NCBI RefSeq assembly: GCF_022809775.1
Contig: NZ_CP094380.1
Location: 2,703,501 to 2,767,500 of the forward strand
Length of the DNA stretch: 64,000 nt
Source: Pseudodesulfovibrio tunisiensis
GTDB lineage: Bacteria > Desulfobacterota > Desulfovibrionia > Desulfovibrionales > Desulfovibrionaceae
Reading direction: 5' to 3'
The notes under the pieces are model-generated. The model made no database searches, was not told the DNA's origin, and saw only the letters and a program-made list of their open reading frames with translations. Below, in pieces: positions 8,524-48,897 of this stretch; the stretch's first letter is position 1; the number at the start of each line of letters is the position of its first letter. Made by a program: the position numbers and the translations under genes.

Positions 8524-8890
8524 AATGCCTTCGGCGACCCTCCCGGGGGGCCGGGCTCTGCCCGGACCCGCCAAGGAGCAAGGCCCCTTGGATCCCCATT
8601 GTGTCTTGAGAATTGGAAAAGGCCCGATGAATGCTCTGTCGAGACATTCACCGGGCCTTTTCCAATTCTCAAGACGGGGGGCTTCAGGAAAGATATTTGT
8701 TCTTCTCTCTTTGCCTGTTTCCCCCGAGTTCTTTTCTTCGATAGCGAAAACTTTCGCTCTTCCGCAGCTCCCTACGCCGCCAGACGAGCCGGACAAGTTC
8801 CCTCATCCCTTGCAGGCGGCGTAGAACCAAAAGGTTTCGGAGAGTCCAGAGAACCCCTTTTCAAAGGGTTCTCTGGTCGCCGAAGGCATT
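8524..8890 (+). repeat. Dispersed composite repeat, copy 1 (complete, with terminal inverted repeats)
   Basis: A 367-bp intergenic element. It starts and ends with the same 16-base sequence in inverted orientation (AATGCCTTCGGCGACC at 8524-8539, its complement at 8875-8890). Inside are four structures: a GC-rich hairpin near 8550-8565; a long hairpin at 8603-8675 with a perfect 24-bp outer stem; a 10-bp stem CTACGCCGCC at 8772-8781 pairing with 8815-8824; and CCAGAGAACCC at 8846-8856 pairing near 8866-8876. A second complete copy lies at 48544-48897 and a partial inverted copy at 27238-27397. No open frame of note lies inside. Confidence 0.88.
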
Positions 8891-27237: not shown

Positions 27238-27397
27238 GACCACCTGTTTCGGGAATTGAAAGAGCCCGGAGGCATGTCCCGGCAGGGCATGACTCCGGGC
27301 TCTTTCAATTCCCGAAACGGAATGGGGATCCAAGGGGCCGTGCTCCTTGGCGCGTCCGGGCAGGGCCCGACCCGCCCCCGGGAGGGTCGCCGAAGGC
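27238..27397 (-). repeat. Dispersed repeat, copy 2 (partial, inverted)
   Basis: This copy reads on the minus strand. It has the end sequence GCCTTCGGCGACC (27385-27397 on the plus strand as its complement), the GC-rich block with GGCCCCTTGGATCCCC, and the long hairpin at 27246-27318 with a perfect 25-bp stem. The second half seen in copies 1 and 3 (CTACGCCGCC stem and the other terminal repeat) is missing or too decayed to see; faint likeness continues to about 27195. Confidence 0.85.
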
Positions 27398-48543: not shown

Positions 48544-48897
48544 GCCTTCGGCGACCCTCCCGGGGGGCTGGGCTCTGCCCAGACCCGCCAAGGAGCAAGG
48601 CCCCTTGGATCCCCATATGTTTCGGGAATTTGAAGAGGCCGGATACATGCCCTGTCGGGACATGCATCCGGTCTCTTCAAATTCTCGAAACGGGTGGTCC
48701 GGTGGTGAAAGAAGTTTTCTTGTCCGTTCGTTTCCCCTGAGTTCTGTCTTTCGACAGGGCAAGGTGGGCAGTCTGCAACCAACTACGCCGCCAACGAGCC
48801 GGACAAGTTCCTTCATCCCTCACTGGCGGCGTAGAACCGGAAAGTTTCGGAGAGTCCAGAGAACCTCTTTTCAAAGGGTTCTCTGGTCGCCGAAGGC
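48544..48897 (+). repeat. Dispersed composite repeat, copy 3 (complete)
   Basis: A 354-bp element with 13-base terminal inverted repeats (GCCTTCGGCGACC at 48544-48556, complement at 48885-48897). The inner parts match copy 1 in order: GC-rich block with AAGGCCCCTTGGATCCCC, long hairpin at 48619-48691 (25-bp arms with two G-T pairs), CTACGCCGCC stem at 48783-48792 with 48825-48834, and the CAGAGAACC hairpin at the end. Like copy 1 it starts immediately after a stop codon. Confidence 0.88.

Follow-up and report, generated by a model that had tools for sequence, protein, structure and literature searches.

A long hairpin within a dispersed element

Three long hairpins in a 64,000-nucleotide stretch of the genome of Pseudodesulfovibrio tunisiensis, probably a sulfate reducer (contig NZ_CP094380.1, positions 2,703,501 to 2,767,500; hereafter the window) raise the question of how a stem stays paired while the sequence of its arms differs from one copy to the next. 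An initial annotation, made from the letters alone, had taken these paired changes to mean that the structure and not the sequence is kept, and had proposed a selected RNA or DNA structure, such as a non-coding RNA, a hairpin recognised by a transposase, or a transcript end. The three hairpins are present where it had placed them (Table 1) and fold as it described, with energies of −55.1, −60.6, and −53.2 kcal/mol and z-scores of −13.1, −11.4, and −11.1 (200 shuffles each, none of them equally stable). The hairpin at 8603–8675 shows 24 perfect outer pairs followed by one A-C mismatch, that at 27246–27318 (minus strand) shows 26 perfect outer pairs, and that at 48619–48691 shows 26 outer pairs, two of them G-T. 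On the 3' side, all three carry a single unpaired A located three pairs beneath the loop, a feature absent from the initial annotation, and they have TGTC or TGCC in the loop, in agreement with the loop core initially annotated. In contrast, the inner CCC/GGG pairs that had been assigned to all of them were found in two hairpins only, with CTC/GAG at 8603–8675, itself a paired change.

The hairpins belong to a larger element, of which the window contains two full copies and one left-half copy. Its parts are, in order, a left module that holds small GC-rich hairpins, then the long hairpin, a stretch rich in pyrimidines, the conserved CTACGCCGCC..GGCGGCGTAG hairpin, and a right module that includes a terminal hairpin. 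No right module was found at the left-half copy. In some copies elsewhere, the second mini-hairpin reads CAAGGGGA..TCCCCTTG or CGAGG..CCTCG, and in relatives the terminal hairpin of the right module is also found solitary and in tandem.

Table 1. Parts and copies of the element in the window.
Feature	Position	Strand	Basis or remark
Full element copy, 361 bp	8527..8887	+	Between two convergent genes; BLAST, pattern matches, alignment, gene calls
Left closing arm GCCTTCGGCGACC	8527..8539	+	Inverted counterpart at 8875–8887
Left-module mini-hairpin 1, CCGGGC tct GCCCGG	8551..8565	+	Sequence; one covarying pair (CG 22, UA 9)
Left-module mini-hairpin 2, CCAAGG .. CCTTGG	8571..8591	+	Sequence, element alignment
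Base of the long hairpin: CCCC and unpaired ATTGT, opposite GGGG beyond the stem	8594..8602	+	Hairpin alignment, pair counts
Long hairpin, 73 nt: 24-bp perfect outer stem, then mismatch, tip	8603..8675	+	Folding, alignment
Tip AATG CTC TGTC GAG A CATT, extrahelical A at 8644	8630..8648	+	Low column entropy
Hairpin CTACGCCGCC .. GGCGGCGTAG	8772..8824	+	Sequence conserved, nearly invariant among copies
Right-module terminal hairpin CCAGAGAACCC .. GGGTTCTCTGG	8846..8876	+	Several subtypes across copies
Right closing arm GGTCGCCGAAGGC	8875..8887	+	Pattern match
Second full copy	48544..48897	+	Flanked by convergent peptidase U32 and class II tRNA-synthetase genes
Long hairpin of the second full copy	48619..48691	+	Folding
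Left-half copy: left module and long hairpin	27246..27397	−	BLAST, arm patterns
Long hairpin of the left-half copy	27246..27318	−	Folding

Copies in the genome and in the genus

BLAST searches combined with arm patterns detected 56 left-module matches in the P. tunisiensis genome, a single contig of 3.61 Mb. A covariance model (R1) built from 52 hairpins revealed 124 matches, on both strands because the hairpin is palindromic, corresponding to 63 distinct loci; R1 scored 150 of 2350 first-look candidates, and weak copies may be missing from the 63. These loci comprise the 52 of the alignment, the already known L111, and ten new ones, eight of them strong, with near-perfect stems of new sequence, one divergent (2861674), and one weak (1696058).

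The hairpin alignment (52 rows, 50 of them distinct) leaves aside four of the 56 left-module matches, which lack the tip pattern (L105, L110, L111, and one side of the composite L113), and the whole-element alignment draws on 35 copies of the 41 whose two ends were found (all except L040, L052, L057, L089, L093, and L106).

DNA of the element was found only within the same genus, in 22 of the 41 genomes searched, P. tunisiensis included, and the 47 matching stretches of named genomes for a 23-letter motif of the right module were all from Pseudodesulfovibrio. R1 itself gave matches in three of 30 other genomes (G009, G015, and, weakly, G010). A search of phage and plasmid collections detected no similar DNA, and a phage or plasmid origin was rejected on that ground; no description of the repeat was found among the open-licence papers listed.

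Several loci showed composite arrangements. L113 consists of two left modules face to face in a 345-bp composite without a right module. In L040, L093, and L104, the loop of the right-module terminal hairpin holds a nested insert of about 75 bp, starting with ACAAATC(C/A)GCAGGACAGCG and with hairpins of its own, thus a second small repeat within the first; the right end of L052 has a similar extra length. Among the relatives, three right modules follow each other at one site in L061, L063, and L084 (genomes G011 and G007), and another type of long hairpin, with purine-rich and pyrimidine-rich arms (for instance, CTGGGGGAAGGGGAGG..CCTCCCCTTCCCCCAG), lies near elements in L062, L065, L077, L082, L215, and L235.

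Paired stems and a conserved tip

Across the 50 distinct copies, standard pairs fill 96.4% of the cells, compared to 79.6% in shuffles; changes on both sides were observed at 29 of 37 pairs, and double-change cells number 307 versus 83 in shuffles. Wobbles occupy 13 of 1850 cells. None of 500 shuffles reached any of the five pairing measures, a test that related sequences can exceed without structure, and moving the partner by a single column lowered pairing to 46–52%. All 31 outer pairs are Watson–Crick in 12 of the 50 copies, the rest having at least one mismatch. Seventeen held-out and other-species hairpins contributed, in their best-scoring stretches (a trimming that favours pairs) and with L310 omitted from the total, 571 pairs, of which 554 are Watson–Crick, seven G-T, seven A-C, and three of other kinds; pairing is almost perfect in the held-out copies and also in other-species hairpins with unrelated stems. 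In the whole-element consensus, the closing arms showed no covariation. The paired change first noticed in three copies, with pairing retained, therefore extends well beyond them, and the shuffles, the held-out copies, the other species, and the conservation of the tip strongly support that shape more than sequence is kept in the long hairpin.

The tip itself varies little (column entropy of 0.31 bits, versus 0.9 in the outer stem). It is composed of a mini-stem of 3 bp, a loop of 3–4 nt, and, on its 3' side, a single extrahelical base, and was recognised in 47 of the 50 distinct P. tunisiensis hairpins, the exceptions being L096, L098, and the second copy at L101. In these 47 and in ten hairpins from other species, the latter selected for the bulge (two from G004, five from G009, and one each from G008, G015, and G017), the first and third pairs of the mini-stem are C-G in 57 of 57 cases, the middle pair may be CG, UA, AU, or GC, the loop starts with T and ends with C, and the extrahelical base is A in 53 (43 of 47 own, 10 of 10 chosen from other species). 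Considering all 27 distinct long hairpins at the relatives' loci, a bulge gave the best fit in 12, ten of which had this tip bulge. In the set of held-out and other-species hairpins, one of the seven from G009 and one of the two from G015 fitted best with no bulge.

The tip motif is thus present in six species, P. tunisiensis and those of G004, G008, G009, G015, and G017. In G004, in G008, and at most loci of G009 and G015, the tip hairpin directly follows a similar left module, with stems of unrelated sequence; in other relatives, long hairpins of a different type occupy that place, some of them containing A- and T-tracts. A tip conserved to this degree provides a defined bait for the putative partner of the hairpin.

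Types of change in the stem

That both arms change together touches on an old question, whether such changes need two mutations, slow to arise and passing through an unfavourable intermediate, or a single copying event. Change types were counted along a minimum spanning tree of the 50 distinct copies, which revealed 129 switches from one Watson–Crick pair to another, 67 of them AU-GC and 62 of transversion type, and eight further two-sided changes outside Watson–Crick pairs. One-sided states amounted to 22 A-C, 12 G-T, 13 transversion mismatches, and one of another kind, and in the unpaired neighbouring columns transitions numbered 223 and transversions 109, counted over the 24 of 34 tree edges that have no more than 25 differences. 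The transversion type made up a larger share of double changes than of single ones (P = 0.003). Where two copies differed at only one pair position, both sides had changed in 9 of 13 cases, one kind being the L096 inversion described below.

Counted by site-type, mismatches showed no strand preference (seven G-T versus 12 A-C, P = 0.36). Counted by cell on the plus strand, A-C prevails over G-T (38 versus 9, P = 2 × 10−5), an excess that, were the copies independent, would be compatible with an RNA from the minus strand; it was not read as evidence of one because a few sites inherited in common account for most of the A-C cells.

The 74-nt hairpin of L096 is the exact reverse complement of that of L034 (no differences, against seven when compared uninverted), inside flanks that are not inverted. 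This in-place inversion could be the footprint of template switching or of recombination between the arms, so the case that the initial annotation had named against itself, arms copied from each other, was found in part. Inversions of the tip are limited to this clear case and an unclear one (L098) among the 52 own copies. Additionally, one arm pair is mismatched in L037, L044, and L048 and matched in either direction in L034, L039, and L045 and in L042, a pattern that recombination between copies could also produce. Homogenised arms and inverted spacers or loops are known effects of template switching (PMC8794818, PMC8604942). In PMC8794818, Monttinen and Loytynoja take loop inversion together with compensatory change as the strongest support for it, a combination very rare in their data, and, as its proponents, regard its role in maintaining short RNA stems in general as less clear and the evidence for it as circumstantial.

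The scarcity of wobbles, the lack of strand preference by site, the double changes of transversion type, and the inversion in L096 point to pairing kept at the DNA level, in part by template switching, and not to a one-strand RNA. Pairing maintained in the DNA, or needed in the two transcripts alike, is more likely than pairing for a single RNA. With about 60 copies in one genome, a stem widely turned over, few wobbles, and an exact inversion, the question of two mutations or one copying event becomes testable in culturable bacteria.

Location of the copies

Neighbouring genes were identified with a codon-usage caller trained on the window and on sampled stretches of this GC-rich genome. The 56 matches lie at 36 convergent, 15 tandem, and one divergent junction, with four unclassified (L113, with its two left modules, counts twice in this and in the gene-end tally); convergent junctions thus account for 36 of the 52 classified copies versus 28 of 167 in the background, where frames of at least 100 codons were required (at least 60 for the copies) and where the window with its own copies is included. 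Sixty-three gene ends lie within 80 nt of a copy, 46 of them within 20 nt, two at 29–30 nt, and 15 at 44–71 nt; most of these 15 (one locus counted twice) have, by eye, a hairpin with a T-rich tail before the element. The stop codon of the adjacent gene was TAG at 46 of the 63 ends, compared to 76 of 179 in the background sample.

Relatives were compared by eye at one orthologous gene end, over 18 loci, those not judged including L139, L140, L144, L146, and L151. A related cassette or a long hairpin was found in four of 12 relatives (G002, G007, G010, and G018) and none in the other eight. The gene beyond this end often differs among relatives.

DnaA C-terminal domains were detected at 2.570 and 0.206 Mb, and the former was taken as the likely origin because the skew of the sampled stretches switches sign nearby. 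Copies that are not independent of each other, found with a first query that lay near the origin, were seen to cluster around it, with only one of the 63 (at 0.631 Mb) in the opposite region (0.113–1.283 Mb, 1.17 Mb), where 20.4 would be expected (P = 6 × 10−10), and, with the same two limits, their divergence from the nearest copy rises with distance from the origin (rho = 0.58, P = 3 × 10−4, 35 full-length copies). Convergent junctions are equally common opposite the origin (10 of 46) and elsewhere (14 of 71).

Signals of transcript ends and of transposition

No Rfam family matched the window at the gathering score; eleven weak matches, with E-values up to 1 and all below that score, included several miRNA families. 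Between 8400 and 9000, a simple scan detected no intrinsic terminator, a weak result given an average of 1.3 in shuffles, and no promoter-like site was found there. Of the 58 own hairpins, 7 have a T-rich tract (five T in six) on both strands, three more on one strand, and 48 on neither; by side, it lies on the 3' arm in 7 of 58 and on the opposite strand in 10 of 58. L305 carries six T behind its GC-rich part. In the relatives, the long hairpins L066, L085, L201, L206, and L216, near similar modules, combine one arm that holds an A-tract with an opposite arm that holds a T-tract, resembling two-way terminators.

Regarding transposition, a direct repeat of 3 bp, and none longer, flanks 2 of the 41 copies with both ends, and a plain transposon insertion was rejected for this lack of target duplication. 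The closing stem reaches no further into the neighbouring sequence than it does when flanks are swapped. The Y1/RAYT transposase, represented by PF01797 as the sole family searched, was found neither in the P. tunisiensis genome nor in G004, G008, G009, and G015, and one match of 48 positions appeared in G017, so that RAYT/IS200 was rejected for the own genome. The idea of a hairpin recognised by a transposase may still hold for some other enzyme, its obvious candidate being the one absent here.

What keeps the hairpin paired

The explanation that we favour, and to which we give about an even chance of being right, is a dispersed intergenic repeat of the REP/BIME kind, whose core, the long hairpin, would be recognised through its tip as a folded strand, and which would spread as DNA. 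The strand would be read by its mini-stem, its loop from U to C, and the extrahelical A, which would mark the strand, presumably by a protein, and copies would move with the help of a putative nuclease or recombinase. They would have spread mostly over the origin-proximal two thirds of the chromosome and would survive mainly behind gene ends, where they would be tolerated, while pairing at the DNA level would be kept by template switching from arm to arm, which makes both arms match in one step, together with selection on foldability. The presence and absence of related cassettes among relatives at the one orthologous gene end, as judged by eye, argues for this reading, as do the 63 loci in one genome, the many double changes with few wobbles, the in-place inversion, the arm pairs found both mismatched and matched, the conserved tip on variable stems, and the rise of divergence with distance from the origin. 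Against it stand the lack of target-site duplications and of a transposase partner (within PF01797), as well as a fit to the stop codons on both sides that is tighter than passive insertion needs; the location would equally suit a function at 3' ends, and recombination between copies, which are mosaics, may also create or mix arms. A bolder version, which we consider unlikely, is a new mobile element of folded DNA, with a site defined by its fold (a perfect stem of free sequence and the extrahelical A), a putative nuclease or recombinase other than Y1/RAYT, turnover by template switching, and an inherited shape. If true, the genus would hold a natural record of a hairpin evolving through double mutations in single steps.

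The main rival of the repeat explanation, with which it is not mutually exclusive, is a two-way RNA element at 3' ends, in which the hairpin folds in both convergent transcripts and ends or protects them. Since what pairs as G-U in one of these RNAs becomes a mismatched A-C in its counterpart, Watson–Crick pairs alone would be kept. The excess of convergent junctions with a single divergent one, the closeness of most gene ends, the minority of hairpins with T-rich tracts, and the relatives with an A-tract/T-tract hairpin near a similar module are all consistent with it, and the authors of PMC3409199 suggested strong terminators for GC-rich structures at coding-region junctions in strain ND132. 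However, most hairpins lack a T-rich tract on either strand, the simple scan found no terminator around the first copy, weak as that result is, the more distant elements mostly lie behind another T-rich-tailed hairpin, and a plain terminator could do without a conserved tip and its extrahelical A. Moreover, PMC5381666 describes the two-way terminators of Bacillus cereus as more conserved than others, whereas the stems here turn over freely, and on balance we hold a two-way 3'-end role to be possible and somewhat improbable. A structured non-coding RNA made from one strand would account for the strong covariation, the conserved loop, and a whole-element consensus with many hairpins. It is nevertheless rejected as the main reading and appears very improbable, since wobbles are scarce, mismatches show no strand preference by site, and G-T and A-C are equally frequent in the held-out and other-species copies, in addition to the Rfam and promoter results; with nearly half of the switches of transversion type and no terminator detected between 8400 and 9000, the selected RNA initially proposed finds no support as it was worded. 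Finally, mutation alone could have kept the arms of a dead, functionless repeat alike through template switching, as the in-place inversion, the frequency of two-sided changes between close copies, and the transversion-rich double changes would suggest. We find this quite doubtful because the sequence and the bulge of the tip are conserved in six species despite the turnover of the stem, this architecture is found repeatedly behind the same left module, and template switching alone would often erase the bulge or invert the tip, of which one clear and one unclear case were seen.

Comparison with known systems

In the RAYT model, the REP hairpin is read as a folded strand. The element described here resembles REP and BIME repeats in being palindromic, dispersed over 63 loci mostly between genes, and, by eye, built of mosaic modules. 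It differs in having no cognate PF01797 gene in its genome, and in a stem of free sequence within a base of CCCC-AT(N)-stem-GGGG and without a tag of the GTAG type. Bacterial MITEs include Correia/NEMIS, RUP, and ERIC; like them, the element is dispersed and non-autonomous, with inverted ends (the closing arms of 13 bp) and inner hairpins, but it lacks target-site duplications, its closing arms do not covary, and its inner hairpin varies in sequence yet stays paired. In integron attC sites and in the end hairpins of IS200/IS605, the fold of one DNA strand outweighs its sequence and an extrahelical base marks the strand. The likeness to these lies in the fold and in its extrahelical base; the Y1 nuclease was not found in this genome. 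D. desulfuricans strain ND132, which also bears on this comparison, was later placed in Pseudodesulfovibrio.

Size also sets the element apart from REP sequences, which measure 20–40 bp according to PMC3733652, compared to 361 bp for the element and 73 nt for its hairpin. With the two-way intrinsic terminators of PMC5381666, it shares the location, the compensatory changes in the stem, and, in the minority noted above, the T-rich tract on both strands, which most of its hairpins lack. AU-GC switches make up 79% of the total in the B. cereus terminators, and among those whose path was resolved, 89.5% went through GU. In the element, they account for 67 of 129, and A-C states are no rarer than G-T ones (in the statistical comparison, 226 and 60 were derived from 79% of 286 column pairs, and the P-value is indicative only). 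A further parallel in position comes from ND132, where the excerpt of PMC3409199 mentions GC-rich "intractable" structures at junctions of two coding regions, treated as an obstacle to sequencing, and describes no repeat family, covariation, or tip motif. By that description alone, they are alike in stability and in their position at junctions; if they did belong to the same family, this would explain the difficulty in sequencing them.
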